DNA of 33,419 nucleotides. Source: Pseudomonadota bacterium (GTDB lineage Bacteria; Vulcanimicrobiota; Vulcanimicrobiia; Eremiobacterales; Eremiobacteraceae). The DNA lies in assembly GCA_021325335.1 (NCBI GenBank), contig JAJPHJ010000084.1:1-33419 (forward strand), in the 5' to 3' direction. The notes beneath the pieces were generated by a model. The model worked only from the letters and a program-made list of their open reading frames with translations, had not been told where the DNA came from and did no database searches. Shown here piece after piece: positions 3,762-12,536 of this stretch (the stretch's first letter is position 1; each line of letters begins with the position of its first letter). The translations under genes and the position numbers were made by a program.

Positions 3762-4033
3762 CACGGCGCGGTCGCGGCCTCGGCGACCCACATCTTCTCA
3801 GCGAGCCGCTGCAACAGGTCTTCCACGTCGCTGCGGACGACCGCGTTGTCCATGCCGTAACGCTCGCCCAAGGCGGCAGCGATCGCATCGATCGTGCGCT
3901 TCCCATCGAGAAGCTCGACGATGGCGGCTGCGGAGTCATTGAGGTTCACGACGCCTTCGGGCACGAGCAGCACGCCCTGGCCGTCCGCGGATCGGCGAAA
4001 CCGAACCCCCTGCGCCAGCGCCGGCGGGTTCAA
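3761..4033 (-). CDS. pqqD: PQQ biosynthesis peptide chaperone PqqD
   Basis: This 90-residue protein binds the PqqA precursor and presents it to PqqE. It has the PqqD fold signature: an RFRR...LLVPEG N-terminal strand region, NDSAAAIVELLDG, then RTIDAIAAAL and a helical tail. The likely start is TTG at 4033. It overlaps the pqqC stop as TTGA, has GGGAGG at 4044-4039 five bases upstream, and gives the usual family length. The longer open frame upstream would overlap pqqC in another frame and is Arg-rich, as out-of-frame GC-rich DNA is. The stop overlaps the pqqE start by one base. In some bacteria PqqD is fused to PqqC or PqqE; here it is separate. Confidence 0.93.
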   Translation of the reverse strand: MNPPALAQGVRFRRSADGQGVLLVPEGVVNLNDSAAAIVELLDGKRTIDAIAAALGERYGMDNAVVRSDVEDLLQRLAEKMWVAEAATAP

Positions 4034-4764
4034 CCGATCCTCCCTTGACGCGTGGGACCGGCGCCGTACGCTGCCATCGTGGCGTCGAGCACCGCCCACA
4101 GGACATCGCACTTGAACTCGAGCGCGCGCACGCACGCATCCTGCAGGTCGAGAGTCGTCGCTTCTTCGAGCACCCACGAGAGCGCGTAGGCGGCATCGCG
4201 CGGCGCAAGCGTGAGACGGCGGCGGAAGTACGCAAGGCCGTGCTCGTCGATCCACGGATACTTCGTGGCGAGCACTTCGATGCGATGCGCCATGAGATCG
4301 GGAGCGAACAGCTCGGTGAGCGAAGAGGCGACGGCCACGACCCACGGCTGGGTGCGCGCCAGCGTCACGTACGCATCCACGGCGAAACGGGTTCCCGGGT
4401 GCACCTCAACTTCGGCCAGCACCTGCGCCTCGCTCAGTCCGACCGCGCGCGCGAGACCAAGCCAGGACTCGATGCCGCCTTCGTGCTCCGCGCTTCCGTC
4501 CTGGTCGATGATGCGCGTGATCCAGCGCCTGCGTTTCTCGCGATCGGGGAGGTGCGAGAGGATCGCCGCATCTTTGACCGGGATGTTCTTTTGATAGTAG
4601 TAACGGTTGGCGACCCAGCCGCGGATCTGTTCGCGCGTCAACACGCCTTCGTGCATCGCGCGGTGAAACGGATGCTTGTCGTGATAGCGCGACGCGCCGA
4701 CGGCGCGCAGGCGCTCTTCGAAATGGTGGCGCAGCTCTGGTCCGCCGTGCATGCGGGTCGTCAA
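4030..4764 (-). CDS. pqqC: Pyrroloquinoline-quinone synthase PqqC
   Basis: This 244-residue cofactor-free oxidase catalyses the final eight-electron oxidation and ring closure to PQQ. Family motifs are evident: YHDKHPFHRAMHEG near the N-terminus, WVANRYYYQKNIPVKDAAI, DQDGSAEHEGGIESWL, and the helical C-terminal half with TELFAPDLMAHR and KYPWIDEHGL. The length is typical. The start is taken as TTG at 4764, overlapping the pqqB stop as TTGA, with GGAG eight bases upstream; an ATG four codons later (4752) is the alternative. It is the third gene of the operon and overlaps pqqD by four bases in the same TTGA arrangement. Confidence 0.96.
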   Translation of the reverse strand: MTTRMHGGPELRHHFEERLRAVGASRYHDKHPFHRAMHEGVLTREQIRGWVANRYYYQKNIPVKDAAILSHLPDREKRRRWITRIIDQDGSAEHEGGIESWLGLARAVGLSEAQVLAEVEVHPGTRFAVDAYVTLARTQPWVVAVASSLTELFAPDLMAHRIEVLATKYPWIDEHGLAYFRRRLTLAPRDAAYALSWVLEEATTLDLQDACVRALEFKCDVLWAVLDATMAAYGAGPTRQGRIG

Positions 4765-5645
4765 AGCTCGATCTCCAGGCCGTCGTCGCAGACAGCGAAT
4801 CCGGCGCGCGCGAGCTCGTGCGCTGCTGCCGACGCCGGATCGAGGATGGGATTGGAATTGTTCACGTGCGTGACATAGCGGCGCTTGGCGCCCGTGCCTG
4901 CGACGCGCTCTAAAGAGCCGCCAGGGCCGCTCAGGGGCGCGTGACCCATCTCGCGCGAGGTGCGCGATCCCAATCCGAGGTCGACCATTTCTTCGTCGCT
5001 CCAGAAGGTCCCGTCCAGGAACGCTGCGTCCGCCTGCGCGAGCTCTCCCTCGAGCGCCGCGTCGAGTTCGAGGAAGATCGGCGCATACAGCACGCGCGCA
5101 TTCCCCTGAGCCAAGACGAACGCCACGGCCGCACCGTCAGCCGGCGCGCCGCCCGCATACGATGGCAATCGACCCGAAACGGGGATCGCCCACACGTCGA
5201 GCTGCCCGCCGAACCGTGCGACCAATACCCGGCCGGCGACTGCATCGAACGTGTGCCAGCTATAGCGCGCGTCGAATTGGCCGAACATCGCGGCATCGCA
5301 GAGCGTCGTCTTCACGAGGCGAGTGGAGAAGATGTCGAGTTTTGCAGCTTGTCTGAACTCGAGCAGGCCGGCGACGTGATCGATGTTCGCATCGGTGAGC
5401 AAGAGCGCCGCTAGCGGACTCTCGCGGCGCAGGGCGGGCCGCAGCGACGGCGTCGACGCGAACTGCGCGCCGATATCGGCGCCTGCGTTGACTAAAACCC
5501 AACGCTCGCCGTCGCCGCTCGCCGCGAGCGCGGCAGTCGTACGCGATGGAATTCTCTTCGCGCGAGCGGAGTCGCAGTTCGGGCATCCGCAGTTCCACTG
5601 CGGGAGTCCGCCGCCGGCCGCGCTCCCTAGGGCTACGATTCGCAT
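4761..5645 (-). CDS. pqqB: PQQ biosynthesis protein PqqB (metallo-beta-lactamase fold)
   Basis: This 294-residue member of the metallo-beta-lactamase superfamily is implicated in oxidising the excised Glu-Tyr dipeptide intermediate. It opens with the family hallmark LGSAAGGGLPQWNC, then the structural zinc motif CGCPNC. Like other PqqB proteins it has LLTDANIDHVAGL in place of the classic HxHxDH motif. THVNNSNPI near the C-terminus is also characteristic. The ATG at 5645 places the conserved MRIVALGSAAGGG at the N-terminus. An upstream in-frame ATG at 5666 lies inside the pqqA-pqqB hairpin and is disfavoured. No strong Shine-Dalgarno is visible, which fits lower translation of pqqB than of pqqA. 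The stop overlaps pqqC. Confidence 0.95.
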   Translation of the reverse strand: MRIVALGSAAGGGLPQWNCGCPNCDSARAKRIPSRTTAALAASGDGERWVLVNAGADIGAQFASTPSLRPALRRESPLAALLLTDANIDHVAGLLEFRQAAKLDIFSTRLVKTTLCDAAMFGQFDARYSWHTFDAVAGRVLVARFGGQLDVWAIPVSGRLPSYAGGAPADGAAVAFVLAQGNARVLYAPIFLELDAALEGELAQADAAFLDGTFWSDEEMVDLGLGSRTSREMGHAPLSGPGGSLERVAGTGAKRRYVTHVNNSNPILDPASAAAHELARAGFAVCDDGLEIEL

Positions 5646-5662
5646 GATGCGGTGCGGAAAAT

Positions 5663-5693
5663 GCATGAGCCACAGCGTTGCTGTGGCTCATGC
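5663..5693 (-). promoter_or_regulatory. Strong hairpin between pqqA and pqqB
   Basis: This is a perfect 14-bp inverted repeat (GCATGAGCCACAGC and its complement) around a 3-nt loop. It lies 19 bases after the pqqA stop and ends 17 bases before the pqqB ATG. No T-run follows on the minus strand, so it is not a classic intrinsic terminator. Such a structure can stabilise a short pqqA transcript or attenuate read-through. In methylotrophs pqqA mRNA is known to exceed the downstream message, and this hairpin could serve that role here (inference). Confidence 0.75.
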
Positions 5694-8338: not shown

Positions 8339-9277
8339 ATGCCTTTCGGCGACGACGTGTTGTCGGGTCTTAGCGCACGCCCGAAGACGCTCCCCGCGAA
8401 ATATTTCTACGACGAGCTGGGTTCGCTGTTATTCGAAGCGATCTCGGCGTTACCCGAATACTACCTCACCCGGGCGGAAGCCGAGATTTTTGCGACGCAT
8501 GCCGATGAGATCGTGGAGCGGGCGGGCTTGGAGCGGCTCGTAGAGCTCGGCGGCGGCAGCGCGACGAAGACGCGCTACCTCATCGAAGCGGCGCTGCGCA
8601 AGCGCGCGGCGTTGAGCTACAGCTCGATCGATATCTCTGAAGCCGCTCTCGAGGCTTCCTCGCGGGCGTTGCGATCGGAGTATCCGACGTTGAACGTGCG
8701 CGGCTATCGAGGTGAGTATTTCGAAGGATTGCGCCGAATGGCTGCGCAGGAGGGCGAAGTCGGCGGGCGTACGCTCGTGCTCTTCCTCGGCTCGAACATC
8801 GGCAACTTCGACCCGCCCGAAGCACGGCGTTTCCTGAAGGCGATTCGCGACGTGTTGCGGCCGGGTGATGCACTGCTGCTCGGCACCGACTTGAAGAAGG
8901 ACCGAAAAGATCTCGAAGCCGCATACGACGACGAGCTCGGCGTCACAGCCGCCTTCAACGCGAACATCCTCGGCCGCATCAATCGTGAGCTTGGAGGCCA
9001 CTTCGCGGTGCGCCGGTTCAAGCACCGCGCTTTCTACAACGAGCCGGATGGCCGGGTCGAGATGCACTTGGAGAGCCTCGTCGACCAGACGATCGGCGTC
9101 GACGCGCTCTCCGCGCACTTCAGTTTCAAAGCAGGGGAGACGATCCACACGGAATCGTCGTACAAATTCTCCATAGAAGAGGTCGAGCAACTGGCGCGTT
9201 TTGCCGGCTTCGAGCTCGAGACGTCATGGTTCGATGCGCAGCGGCGCTTTGCGTGCAATCTCCTGCGCGCCTCCTGA
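8339..9277 (+). CDS. egtD: L-histidine N-alpha-methyltransferase EgtD
   Basis: This 312-residue SAM-dependent enzyme trimethylates histidine to hercynine, the first step of ergothioneine synthesis. The family signature KYFYDELGSLLFE (21-33), LPEYYLTRAE (38-47) and SAM motif ELGGGSATKTR (69-79) are present. GSNIGNFDP (151-159) follows. IHTESSYKF includes Glu272 and Ser274, which correspond to the substrate-recognising Glu/Ser pair of mycobacterial EgtD (family knowledge), supporting histidine as substrate. The start lacks a clear Shine-Dalgarno. No egtB, egtC or egtE is in the window, so later steps must be encoded elsewhere or the end product may be hercynine. It converges, 26 bases apart, on a betaine-type ABC importer operon. 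Confidence 0.92.
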   Translation: MPFGDDVLSGLSARPKTLPAKYFYDELGSLLFEAISALPEYYLTRAEAEIFATHADEIVERAGLERLVELGGGSATKTRYLIEAALRKRAALSYSSIDISEAALEASSRALRSEYPTLNVRGYRGEYFEGLRRMAAQEGEVGGRTLVLFLGSNIGNFDPPEARRFLKAIRDVLRPGDALLLGTDLKKDRKDLEAAYDDELGVTAAFNANILGRINRELGGHFAVRRFKHRAFYNEPDGRVEMHLESLVDQTIGVDALSAHFSFKAGETIHTESSYKFSIEEVEQLARFAGFELETSWFDAQRRFACNLLRAS

Positions 9278-9303
9278 TCGAACGTCGCAAAATATAGTGT
9301 AGT

Positions 9304-9930
9304 TCATGCGCGGCGCCAGGTTTGCGAGCGCCGCTCGAGGGCGCGCAAGCCGAAATCGACGGCGTACGCGAGGAGCACCGCGGTCAGAGCGCCCGCGACC
9401 GCCTTGGCGGGATAATCATGCTCGATGCCGTCGAGCACGAGCACTCCCAGGCCTCCTGCATTGACCCAGGCGGCGATAGTGGCGATGCCGATAATCGAAA
9501 CGGTCGCGAGGCGCACCCCGGCGAGGAACACCGGCAATGCCAAAGGGCGCTCGATGCGCCAGAGGATCTGCGCCTCGTTCATGCCCGTGCCTCGCGCGGC
9601 CTCGACCACGGCCCGGTCGACGCCCCGCAAAGCGACGACCGTGTTGCGCACGAGGACCATCTGCGCGTAGGCGGCAAGCCCGACGACCGCAGTCCAAAAC
9701 CCCAAGCCCAGGATGGGGATGAGCAGCGCGAAGAGCGCGATGCTCGGAATCGTGTAGATAACGCTGCCGAGGCCGAGCGCGAGCGGAGCCCAGCGGGCGT
9801 AGCGCGCGCACCATATCCCGACCGGTACCGCGAAAAGCAAGGCCAGAGCGAGGGACGTCACCGTGAGGGCGAGATGTTGAAGCAGCAGCTGGCCGATGAG
9901 TCCAAGATGACGAGCGGCGTACTCGAGCAC
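9304..9930 (-). CDS. OpuC-type betaine ABC transporter permease (distal)
   Basis: This is a 208-residue inner-membrane permease of the glycine betaine/choline (OpuCB/OpuCD, YehW/YehY) family. There are five or six hydrophobic helices. The inner-loop coupling (EAA-type) segment is AARGTGMNEAQILWRIERP, typical of the family, and WVNAGGLGVLVLDGI is the usual conserved stretch near the end. The start is taken as GTG at 9930, four bases after the ATPase stop; an upstream frame inside the ATPase gene is unlikely. It is the last gene of the four-gene importer operon and pairs with the permease at 11789, probably as a heterodimer. Confidence 0.88.
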   Translation of the reverse strand: MLEYAARHLGLIGQLLLQHLALTVTSLALALLFAVPVGIWCARYARWAPLALGLGSVIYTIPSIALFALLIPILGLGFWTAVVGLAAYAQMVLVRNTVVALRGVDRAVVEAARGTGMNEAQILWRIERPLALPVFLAGVRLATVSIIGIATIAAWVNAGGLGVLVLDGIEHDYPAKAVAGALTAVLLAYAVDFGLRALERRSQTWRRA

Positions 9931-9934
9931 GTCG

Positions 9935-10900
9935 TCAGCTGCCGGCCGCGCGCGCAGCGGCGAGCATGGATGCAAGCGTGAGAGTTCCCAGAGGACGCCC
10001 GTCGTCGCCAATCACGGGCAGTCGCAGGGTTCCCGATGCCAGCATGACGGACAGAACCGACCGCAAGTCGTCGTCAAAGCGCACCGCCGCGGGGCTTGCG
10101 GGGCCGGAATCTTGCTCGAGCGCGGCATCGCGCACTTTCATCACGCTGAAGCGCCGGACGACGTCGTTCGCATTGACGAGTTCGGCGACGAAACCGTCCG
10201 CAGGTTTGGCGAGGATCGCGATAGGGCGGCCGTGCTGCACGACCCGGCCTTCGCGCATGACGACGATCTCATCGGCAAGCCTCAGCGCTTCGTCCACGTC
10301 GTGCGTCACGAACAGCACCGTCTTGTGCAAGCGCCCTTGCACCCCGTGCAGCTCGGCTTGCAATCGCGCCCGCTCGATGGCGTCGAGCGCGCCGAACGGC
10401 TCGTCCATCAGCAAGATCTGCTGATCGGCTGCGAGCGCTCTCGCGATGCCCACCCGTTGTTGTTGCCCGCCCGAGAGCGCGGCCGGATAACGCGCGCCGA
10501 ACTCGCGCGCCGGCAGCCGCACGAGCTCCAGCATTTCCGACACCCGTGCCTCGATCTGTGCGGGGGGCCACCTCATGAGCGATGGCACGACAGCGACGTT
10601 TTGGGCGACGCTCATGTGCGGGAACAAGCCGATCTGCTGGATGACATAGCCGATGCTCCGACGCAGAGCGGTCGCGTCGCGCGTCGCGATGCCGGCACCG
10701 TCGACCTCGACATCGCCGCTGGTCGGATCCACCAGCCGGTTCACCATTTTGAGAAGCGTCGTCTTTCCGCAGCCCGACGGTCCAAGGAGCACGACAAAAC
10801 TGCCACGCGCGACCTCGAAGCTGACGTCGTCGATGACGCGCTGGCGATCGCCGTAGGCTTTGCTGACGTGGTTGAACCGGACGCCGGGGACGTCGCTCAC
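9935..10900 (-). CDS. OpuC-type betaine ABC transporter ATP-binding protein
   Basis: This is the 321-residue ATPase of a quaternary-amine importer (ProV/OpuCA group). Walker A is GPSGCGKTT (40-48), the Q-loop lies in GYVIQQIGLFPHM, the ABC signature is LSGGQQQR, Walker B is ILLMDEPFGALD and the H-loop is VTHD. After about residue 250 it has a C-terminal extension with one CBS-like unit (RLPVIGDDGRPLGTLTLASML). In OpuCA-type proteins this region senses ionic strength or nucleotide; here it looks shorter than a full tandem CBS pair. It overlaps the binding-protein gene by four bases (ATGA), so translation is coupled. Confidence 0.93.
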   Translation of the reverse strand: MSDVPGVRFNHVSKAYGDRQRVIDDVSFEVARGSFVVLLGPSGCGKTTLLKMVNRLVDPTSGDVEVDGAGIATRDATALRRSIGYVIQQIGLFPHMSVAQNVAVVPSLMRWPPAQIEARVSEMLELVRLPAREFGARYPAALSGGQQQRVGIARALAADQQILLMDEPFGALDAIERARLQAELHGVQGRLHKTVLFVTHDVDEALRLADEIVVMREGRVVQHGRPIAILAKPADGFVAELVNANDVVRRFSVMKVRDAALEQDSGPASPAAVRFDDDLRSVLSVMLASGTLRLPVIGDDGRPLGTLTLASMLAAARAAGS

Positions 10901-11808
10901 GACGTGCGGGGGACGAGCCTTATGACGTTCAGAAAATCAGCCGCCACGTCCGCCGGTTCTTCGTGCCCTCCATCCACGCGCCAATTGAGATGCCGCATGG
11001 TCCGATCGGTCAGGTGCGGCGCGAGAGGATTGAGCATGCCGGGGATGCGCGGGAAACGCGCCAGCGCGTCGTTGCGCACCACGGGCGCGACTTCGTACGG
11101 CGGGAAGAAATGCTTGTCGTCTTCGAGCACGGCTAGGTGATATGCATCGATCTGCCCGTCGGTTCCAAATGCGACGACGACGTCGACTTGACCATCCAAG
11201 AGCGCTTTGTATTTCAGGCCGATATCGATGAGCGTGATCGCCGCGAACCGGAAACCGCCGTAAGCCTTTTGCAGGCCGGGCAAGCCATCAGGCCGGTCCG
11301 TGAATTCCGGTACGGCGCCAAGACGCAGACGGGGCGCGAGCCGCGCGCAATCGGAGAGGGTCACAAGACCAAAGCGTCGCGACATCGCTTGGGTCGTCGC
11401 CAGCGCTTGCGTGTCGTTCATCGGCGCCGGCAGCAACCACGTCAAGTCGTAGCGCTCTCGGTAGAGCCGCTTCACGGTGTCGTAGACCACAAGCCTGTCA
11501 TGGATCGGTGCACGCTTGAGCTGCGTGAGCAACGCGGTACCGGTGTACTCAGGGTAGCAATCGATCGCCCCCCGCAGGAGCGATGCCATCGCGATGTTCG
11601 TGCCGCCGAGATCGAGCTTGCGCGCGACCTGATAGCCGCCATGCTCGAGCAGCTGCGCGTACATCTCGCCGAGCAGCAGCTCCTCCGTGAAGTTCTTCGA
11701 ACCGATGCCAAGCGCGGCACCTCGATGCGCGCATGCGCTCAAGGTCGCGACGCCGCCGAGCAGGGCGAGCGCTTGGGCTCGCGTCAGCTTAGCGGGCACC
11801 GGCGGCAT
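10897..11808 (-). CDS. OpuC-type betaine ABC transporter substrate-binding lipoprotein
   Basis: This is a 303-residue periplasmic or membrane-anchored binding protein (OpuAC/OsmF/YehZ-type). The N-terminus has a hydrophobic segment ending in the lipobox LSAC (Cys26). The mature part starts with the family opening IGSKNFTEELLLGEMYAQLLE, and later shows the conserved ...DCYPEYTGTAL and DVVVAFGTDGQIDAY. The ligand is probably a quaternary amine: glycine betaine, choline, carnitine or histidine betaines such as hercynine/ergothioneine. The sequence cannot choose between them, but egtD next door makes the last group worth testing. ATG 11808 is preferred over an upstream TTG; it overlaps the upstream permease by 20 bases. 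Confidence 0.9.
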   Translation of the reverse strand: MPPVPAKLTRAQALALLGGVATLSACAHRGAALGIGSKNFTEELLLGEMYAQLLEHGGYQVARKLDLGGTNIAMASLLRGAIDCYPEYTGTALLTQLKRAPIHDRLVVYDTVKRLYRERYDLTWLLPAPMNDTQALATTQAMSRRFGLVTLSDCARLAPRLRLGAVPEFTDRPDGLPGLQKAYGGFRFAAITLIDIGLKYKALLDGQVDVVVAFGTDGQIDAYHLAVLEDDKHFFPPYEVAPVVRNDALARFPRIPGMLNPLAPHLTDRTMRHLNWRVDGGHEEPADVAADFLNVIRLVPRTS

Positions 11809-12442
11809 ACCCGATACGATGCGCGCTCGCAAGGAAAAGCGCGCTTGCGAGAACTTCGACGCAGAACGCGAGCACAGCCACGCTCACCGCGCCCAACAGC
11901 AACTGGCGCATGTCGTTGTTCGCGAGACCATCCAAGATGAACGTGCCCAACCCGCCGGCCCCGATGAACGCGGCGAGCGTCGCCGAGGCGATCACTTCGA
12001 CCGCGCTTGTCCTCAGGCCGGCGATTACGACGGGCGCCGCGAGCGGAGCCTCGACCCGCGCGAGCAACTGCGCGGGCCGCATGCCCATGCCCAGGGCGGC
12101 TTCCCGGATGGGCGCAGCGACGCCGCGCAAGGCGACGTCGGTGTTGATGAGAATCGGCGGAAACGCGAGCAGCGCGAGCGCGACCAGCGCCGGCCAGAAA
12201 CCAAGTCCCAAGAGCGGGAGCATGAAGGCCAAGACGGCGAGACTGGGCACCACGCGTAGCGCCGTCACGACGCCGACGACCGAGCGCCCCGCTTCGCTGC
12301 GCGATGTCCACACCCCGAGCGGCAGACCGACGATCGCAGCCACAGCCAGCGCCGCCGCGCACAAGACGACGTGCTGGCGCACAGCGAGTCCCAGGTCGTT
12401 CGCATGTGCGAGCGCGTAGGCCCACGTTTGTGCGAGCAGCAT
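11789..12442 (-). CDS. OpuC-type betaine ABC transporter permease (proximal)
   Basis: This is a 217-residue integral membrane permease and the first gene of the importer operon. It has about six hydrophobic helices, the conserved cytoplasmic coupling region REAALGMGMRPAQLLARVEAP, and IGAGGLGTFILDGLANND near the C-terminus, which closely parallels the distal permease. The start is ATG 12442 or a TTG four codons upstream (12454); no good Shine-Dalgarno separates them. It is divergent from sixA with 94 bases between. No osmotic-type promoter could be picked out there. Confidence 0.87.
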   Translation of the reverse strand: MLLAQTWAYALAHANDLGLAVRQHVVLCAAALAVAAIVGLPLGVWTSRSEAGRSVVGVVTALRVVPSLAVLAFMLPLLGLGFWPALVALALLAFPPILINTDVALRGVAAPIREAALGMGMRPAQLLARVEAPLAAPVVIAGLRTSAVEVIASATLAAFIGAGGLGTFILDGLANNDMRQLLLGAVSVAVLAFCVEVLASALFLASAHRIGYAAGAR

Positions 12443-12536
12443 GAGCGCCCGCAATTCTGCGCGCCGCGTGCGGACACCCGCAGATTGAGCCGTGAAGCGG
12501 AAGGCCCCGCAGCCTGCTGCGCCAAGTGACGCCGCT

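Follow-up and report, generated by a model that had tools for sequence, protein, structure and literature searches.

An OpuC-type ABC importer conserved beside egtD in a class of Candidatus Eremiobacterota as a candidate ergothioneine importer

The stretch of DNA analyzed here (the window; 33,419 nucleotides, contig JAJPHJ010000084.1 of assembly GCA_021325335.1, forward strand) carries egtD, the gene for the methyltransferase that forms hercynine from histidine, and, converging on it, a cassette of four genes for an ATP-binding cassette (ABC) transporter of the OpuC/ProX type (9304–12454; Table 1). The minus-strand cassette is transcribed in the order permease, substrate-binding protein (SBP), ATPase with CBS domain, and permease, and it has the make-up of a complete importer of this type, with an SBP, a CBS-bearing ATPase and two ProW-type permeases. 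An original prediction made from the sequence had placed egtD tail-to-tail with a complete OpuC-type importer, and this arrangement was borne out by the methyltransferase score above its family cut-off, the four cassette genes and the distance of 26 bp between the stops.

Table 1 Features of the egtD–importer locus and of the SBP ligand pocket (positions in the window)
Feature	Position	Strand	Basis
egtD, L-histidine N-alpha-methyltransferase (hercynine-forming), 312 aa	8339..9277	+	TIGR03438, PF10017, 4uy6 match, contact residues
Gap between convergent stop codons of egtD and the last permease gene, 26 bp	9278..9303	.	coordinates
ABC permease, last cassette gene; start uncertain	9304..10011	-	PF00528
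ABC ATPase, ProV/OpuCA type, C-terminal CBS domain	9935..10900	-	PF00005, PF00571; TIGR01186 290 bits (below cut-off 326.6)
SBP, OpuAC family, subcluster F-III type; start possibly ATG near 11808	10897..11832	-	PF04069 200 bits
ABC permease, first cassette gene	11789..12454	-	PF00528; ProW-like 84 bits
SBP F222 codon (AfProX Y190 / EgtU Y419)	11167..11169	-	alignment
SBP Q142 codon (AfProX Y111 / EgtU Y341; Tyr in both cages)	11407..11409	-	alignment
SBP Y96 codon (EgtU F293; AfProX Y63)	11545..11547	-	alignment
SBP F48 codon (EgtU G244; Phe in AfProX)	11689..11691	-	alignment

The egtD product scored 357 bits against the NCBIfam model TIGR03438 (cut-off, 290.9) and 366 bits against Pfam PF10017, and its best match among solved structures was the M. 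smegmatis-type EgtD 4uy6. All five residues given as histidine contacts of mycobacterial EgtD (Y56, N166, Y206, E282 and S284; PMC8593015) were present in the alignment; among 55 aligned EgtD proteins, the first four were found in every sequence and S284 in 50. In the cassette, the true start of the last permease gene is uncertain, because its open reading frame (ORF) overlaps the ATPase gene. The SBP shares 31–42% identity with its solved relatives OpuBC/OpuCC, A. fulgidus ProX (AfProX) and EgtU, and its structure was predicted with a pLDDT (predicted local distance difference test) of 94.9. Near its N-terminus lies LSAC, which we take to be a lipobox-like motif. Among curated NCBIfam models, the SBP matched OsmF (glycine betaine) only, reaching 161 of 400 bits. 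In its own genome (2.39 Mb, 94% complete) it is the only OpuAC-family protein, and the window EgtD is the only Methyltransf_33 protein.

Linkage of the two elements was analyzed in 61 genomes of the class within Ca. Eremiobacterota (the own genome and 60 relatives; three families, f1–f3, and 34 genera). egtD was detected in 58 of them and a relative of the SBP in 57; the two genes shared a contig in 49, were convergent in all 49, and were separated by 1.3–7.3 kb. The adjacency is far beyond chance, and the absence of conserved linkage, which the original prediction had named as an outcome that would count against it, was clearly not what we observed. A close SBP relative was present in 52 genomes (genus g27 left out), each of which has egtD (Fisher p 0.002, kinship not corrected), and three genomes (G011, G013 and G025) lack egtD and SBP alike. 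The pair was apparently split by contig ends in two genomes (G008 and G055), where the contig edge carries all or part of the last permease, and possibly split by a contig end in G050 too; in G049, egtD lies on a 7-kb contig and the SBP was not found.

Families f2 and f3 contributed 38 fetched loci with the linkage, and comparison of the surroundings revealed none of nine other labeled window genes in any of them; egtD and the cassette thus stay together while their surroundings turn over. General synteny as the source of the linkage was ruled out by these 38 loci. In f1, to which the window belongs, many of the nine genes were present at linked loci. Across 48 loci, the stops of egtD and of the cassette overlap or are at most 24 bp apart in 20 and are more than 500 bp apart in 24. 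Genes inserted between the two encode a multicopper oxidase in 6 loci, an S9 peptidase in 5, a C26 peptidase/GATase in 3, a DNA ligase in 2 and one family without a match in 3; the families scanned there gave no functional clue. Named genomes were also scanned with the SBP alignment of the class; this gave 80 loci, and egtD was nearby in 9 of the 13 Eremiobacterota-type loci versus 1 of the 67 others. In this sole case, a cyanobacterium (L162), egtD and a related SBP lie on the same strand, egtD being upstream by 2.2 kb, and the SBP has Thr at position 111 (positions without a residue letter follow AfProX numbering).

Genus g27 is an exception that fits this pattern. Its five genomes have egtD unlinked to an SBP, and their only SBP is a relative of 40–42% identity, which in the two loci read is fused, as the N-terminal part, to a permease and has an ordinary Asn/Tyr/Tyr cage. 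At the g27 loci (L126, L127, L128 and L134), egtD adjoins an EgtB/OvoA/SenA-like gene and not the importer (five of five genomes by coordinates; one protein scanned).

The original prediction had noted that no egtB lies nearby, and this stood: the EgtB model matched the own genome in one place only, on another contig (C32). The search for egtB elsewhere that it had proposed thereby found an EgtB/SenA-like enzyme, which scored 310 of 360 bits against the EgtB model and 315 of 420 against the SenA model; EgtB or SenA alike, it would consume hercynine. An EgtB model match of some kind, many of them short or split, was found in 60 of the 61 class genomes, and G025 lacks egtB together with egtD and the SBP. 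The C32 gene (L001, 144–4117) is flanked by a glutamate-cysteine-ligase-like gene and by an ORF that appeared ATP-grasp-like by eye (no NCBIfam match).

The ligand residues of AfProX are Y63, D109, Y111, R149, Y190 and Y214 (Table 2 of PMC10087775). The four-Tyr cage (63, 111, 190 and 214) is not kept in the window SBP, which reads Y, Q, F and Y, and the signature of the ergothioneine-linked Q-type SBP group that we propose (Q at 111, F at 190, E145 and R149) is complete. Among the egtD-associated SBPs of the class, Gln occupies the Y111 position in all 50 readable proteins (one was unreadable) and Phe the Y190 position in all 51; two g27 proteins have Tyr at both. K46 and T99 of the SBP match Lys and Thr in AfProX. 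As judged from the alignment, the pocket is not a standard glycine-betaine site, given Gln at Y111/Y341 and Phe at Y190/Y419 (AfProX/EgtU). For the other outcome that the original prediction had set against itself, a pocket with glycine betaine/choline residues only, positions 15, 63 and 109 agreed, whereas 111, where the SBP has Gln, did not.

The published bacterial ergothioneine importers are the EgtU proteins of Firmicutes and H. pylori (PMC9732360), and the diagnostics given there are an invariant G244 and F293 in place of AfProX Y63, together with Y337. The SBP of S. pneumoniae EgtU (EgtUC, PDB 7txk/7txl) likewise belongs to the F-III type of the OpuAC family; the window SBP shares 34% identity with this domain and keeps K242, T275, T296, E375, R379 and Y443, but differs by G244 to F (F48), F293 to Y (Y96), Y337 to M (M138), N339 to D (D140), Y341 to Q (Q142) and Y419 to F (F222). 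EgtU is moreover a fusion of permease and substrate-binding domain, whereas the window importer has a separate SBP, ATPase and two permeases. Identity of the SBP with EgtU was ruled out by the replacement of both published diagnostics with Phe and Tyr, and the original assignment to the EgtU group did not hold. H. pylori EgtU (PDB 8dp6/8dp7) matched the fold with Z 33.7 at 34% identity. AfProX (1sw1/1sw2; glycine/proline betaine) has in common with the window SBP the equivalents of Y63, D109, R149 and Y214 and the Phe at the G244 position, and differs by Y111 to Q and Y190 to F. B. subtilis OpuBC/OpuCC and the precursors of iAChSnFR-type sensors, of the same SBP family and cassette type, were the best solved matches (33–42%); the iAChSnFR precursor has Tyr at the 111 position, where the window SBP has Gln. 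We know of no egtD linkage of OpuBC/OpuCC-type systems. The structure search revealed no separation by ligand, since F-III proteins all scored Z 31–35. A glycine-betaine-specific ProX of marine Synechococcus was considered as counter-evidence and set aside, because it belongs to the Trp-cage cluster F-I and is 17% identical to AfProX (PMC10087775).

In a quick tree of 99 SBPs, computed with the pocket columns kept in, the egtD-linked SBPs fell on one side of a branch with support 98, and a Bacillota group that includes Q-type SBPs linked to ergothioneine-breakdown (ert) genes had support 99. The egtD-linked, Bacillota Q-type, Cyanobacteria/Chloroflexi and hut groups were joined (SH-aLRT, the Shimodaira–Hasegawa-like approximate likelihood ratio test, 91) apart from EgtU, and the window SBP lay outside the EgtU branch; EgtU and some others form long branches, the placement of which is unsure.

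Analysis of the named-genome loci revealed Q-type SBPs in Eremiobacterota, Cyanobacteria, Chloroflexi and Bacillota, and in Aeribacillus, Brevibacillus, Cohnella, Paenibacillus and Lederbergia they lie among ert genes. The breakdown steps were assigned by NCBIfam model names, with single members scored. Three passed their cut-offs (thiourocanate hydratase with 1013 bits against 930, thiohydantoin desulfurase with 618 against 440, and ErtE with 553 against 520), and two fell below (ErtD with 534 against 650, and an aromatic ammonia-lyase, the would-be ergothionase, with 509 against 524 in the histidine ammonia-lyase model). The window SBP is 49% identical to the ert-linked Bacillota SBP of L181, and the uncharacterized importers of these clusters, which are linked to catabolic genes and not to egtD, have the D/N-x-Q ... 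F pocket in common with it. Among 36 genomes outside the class with this SBP group (35 Q-type, and L162 with Thr), EgtD exceeded the cut-off only in 17 of the 19 cyanobacterial ones, with 0 of 11 Chloroflexi-type and 0 of 6 Bacillota genomes.

The association with ert genes was counted in 295 genomes of Paenibacillaceae, 25 of which have a desulfurase over the cut-off. The 31 ert loci around desulfurase genes (L246–L276, some split) comprised 16 with a Q-type SBP, 13 with only a second, Y-type SBP and 2 without an SBP; in six loci of a weaker desulfurase relative, no SBP of either kind was counted. The reverse search (E ≤ 1e-60) gave 48 SBP sites, 26 Q-type and 22 other (residues were read in 12 of the latter, and 10 are known by 41–46% identity only). 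A desulfurase gene was located within 7 kb in 16 of the 26 Q-type sites (15 over the cut-off, 1 split) versus 0 of the 22 others (Fisher p 4e-6, kinship not corrected). In two genomes, Brevibacillus SYP-B805 and G326, a Q-type cassette lies with ert genes (L175 and L268, respectively) and a Y-type cassette with hutH/hutU (L147 and L324; the hut genes of L324 were matched by similarity only).

Several observations in these clusters stand beside this comparison. The second SBP family in ert clusters (L246, L248, L249, L255–L260, L263, L271, L272 and L276), at about 31% identity, mostly has the pocket KFNYTFNYERYY and is distinct from both the Q-type and EgtU. At L316–L319, a Q-type SBP lies beside two tandem aromatic-ammonia-lyase-like genes with about 32% identity to the ergothionase candidate. 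OpuC-type cassettes with a normal Tyr111 cage adjoin hutH and hutU at L147, L167, L184, L323 and L324 (Brevibacillus/Paenibacillus); where scanned, hutU exceeded the cut-off in L147, L167 and L184 and hutH in L147 and L167. These Y-type cassettes are candidate importers of histidine or hercynine. In the window itself, the minus strand at 4030–5666 resembles, by eye, pqqC and pqqB of pyrroloquinoline quinone biosynthesis.

We infer the ligand, direction and physiological role of the importer from these comparisons. Import of ergothioneine, or possibly hercynine, is the best reading, because the egtD linkage is class-wide and Bacillota SBPs of the same pocket lie in ert clusters; the original proposal of such import was strengthened on both counts and lost its membership in the EgtU group. 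The direction is presumably inward, because the system depends on an SBP. On balance we consider it likely that the cassette encodes an SBP-dependent importer of a histidine betaine, most likely ergothioneine and less likely hercynine, kept with egtD through a common intracellular pool. Its ligand would probably be ergothioneine or a close relative, not an ordinary osmolyte.

A number of results weigh against ergothioneine as the ligand. Both EgtU diagnostics are missing, and the G244F exchange lowers ergothioneine binding by EgtU about 100-fold (PMC9732360), Phe being the residue of the window SBP at this position. The C32 enzyme remained under both the EgtB and the SenA cut-off, and the EgtE model, which matches generic aminotransferases in 14 of 14 control genomes and is of no use here, exceeded its cut-off in none of the 61 class genomes. 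The Bacillota ert-cluster SBPs are only about 45–50% identical to those of Eremiobacterota and have Ala, Ile or Val where the window SBP has Met at position 107. Of the 26 Q-type sites in Paenibacillaceae, ten lack a nearby desulfurase gene; one of them (L322) has thiourocanate hydratase, ErtD and ErtE, and at five (L313, L314, L315, L320 and L321) no gene of the ert set of five lies close by. Since 13 of the 31 ert loci have only a Y-type SBP, the Q-type is not required for ergothioneine import. Q-type SBPs of Cyanobacteria are not linked to egtD, and those of Chloroflexi have neither egtD (0 of 11 genomes) nor ert genes nearby.

The last two groups would agree with an importer of the usual compatible solutes (glycine betaine, proline betaine or choline), for which hercynine or ergothioneine is an osmolyte at most and the linkage inherited synteny, as would the status of the SBP as the only OpuAC-type SBP in the genome, the match of K46, F48, Y96, T99, D140 and R180 to AfProX, and the CBS domain, which the ATPase shares with osmoregulated systems. 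However, the linkage persists where the nine other labeled window genes are gone, egtD and SBP are missing together, Gln invariantly replaces cage Tyr111, and SBPs with this pocket are over-represented in ert clusters; we regard this explanation as unlikely. Specificity for hercynine (or histidine), feeding the product or substrate pool of EgtD, appears about as unlikely, even though it is the tightest reading of the egtD linkage alone and the EgtB-like gene lies on another contig. HutXWV is a betaine-family ABC system with histidine uptake, on which our literature search retrieved nothing, and the Bacillota Y-type clade next to the ert clade adjoins ordinary hutH/hutU (support of this join is only 82). 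Yet the Q-type pocket goes with ert genes, of which the desulfurase and thiourocanate hydratase act on the sulfur-bearing compound, whereas the hut-linked clade has Tyr; the cage and carboxylate residues also favor a quaternary amine over free histidine. Shared regulation without a shared substrate, through read-through or antisense transcription between the two converging genes, could draw on the 20 loci with overlapping or closely spaced stops, but in 24 loci the pair stays convergent across more than 500 bp, often with other genes between, which makes it very improbable.

If the cassette imports ergothioneine, EgtD would make hercynine in the cytoplasm, the EgtB/SenA-like enzyme encoded elsewhere in the genome would consume it, and the importer would retrieve leaked or neighbor-made ergothioneine. 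In the SBP, Y96, F222, Y246 and D140 would enclose the trimethylammonium group, and K46, T99 and R180 would hold the carboxylate, contacts transferred from EgtU by alignment; E176 and Q142 may lie near the imidazole or thione, the role of Q142 being a guess. The ligand would then be carried inward by the two permeases together with the CBS-bearing ATPase. Secretion of ergothioneine is noted for M. smegmatis (PMC12689799), and the importer may serve to recapture a costly antioxidant or to scavenge it from neighbors. A broader proposal, which we hold tentatively and with some doubt, is that ergothioneine ABC importers include a second family, separate from EgtU and marked by a Gln/Phe-altered cage, that serves producers (egtD-welded recapture in Ca. 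Eremiobacterota) and degraders (Bacillota ert clusters), with Gln for Tyr selecting the thione-bearing betaine.

The fold and transporter type are well known, and the novelty is an importer family welded to egtD that is not EgtU; our searches of open-licence literature, judged by titles and the beginnings of abstracts, found no such family, and one on ergothioneine in Eremiobacterota found no paper. The best reading of the gene content and pocket is a recapture importer outside the EgtU family for ergothioneine, possibly hercynine, in a hercynine-making organism. If this is true, the automatic annotation of the SBP, now drawn from the OsmF model, would be corrected, ligand choice in the OpuC family would become testable at one residue, and a second importer family, spread over several phyla, would be recognizable by a sequence signature. 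An importer fixed beside egtD throughout the class would mean that producers of ergothioneine also retrieve it.

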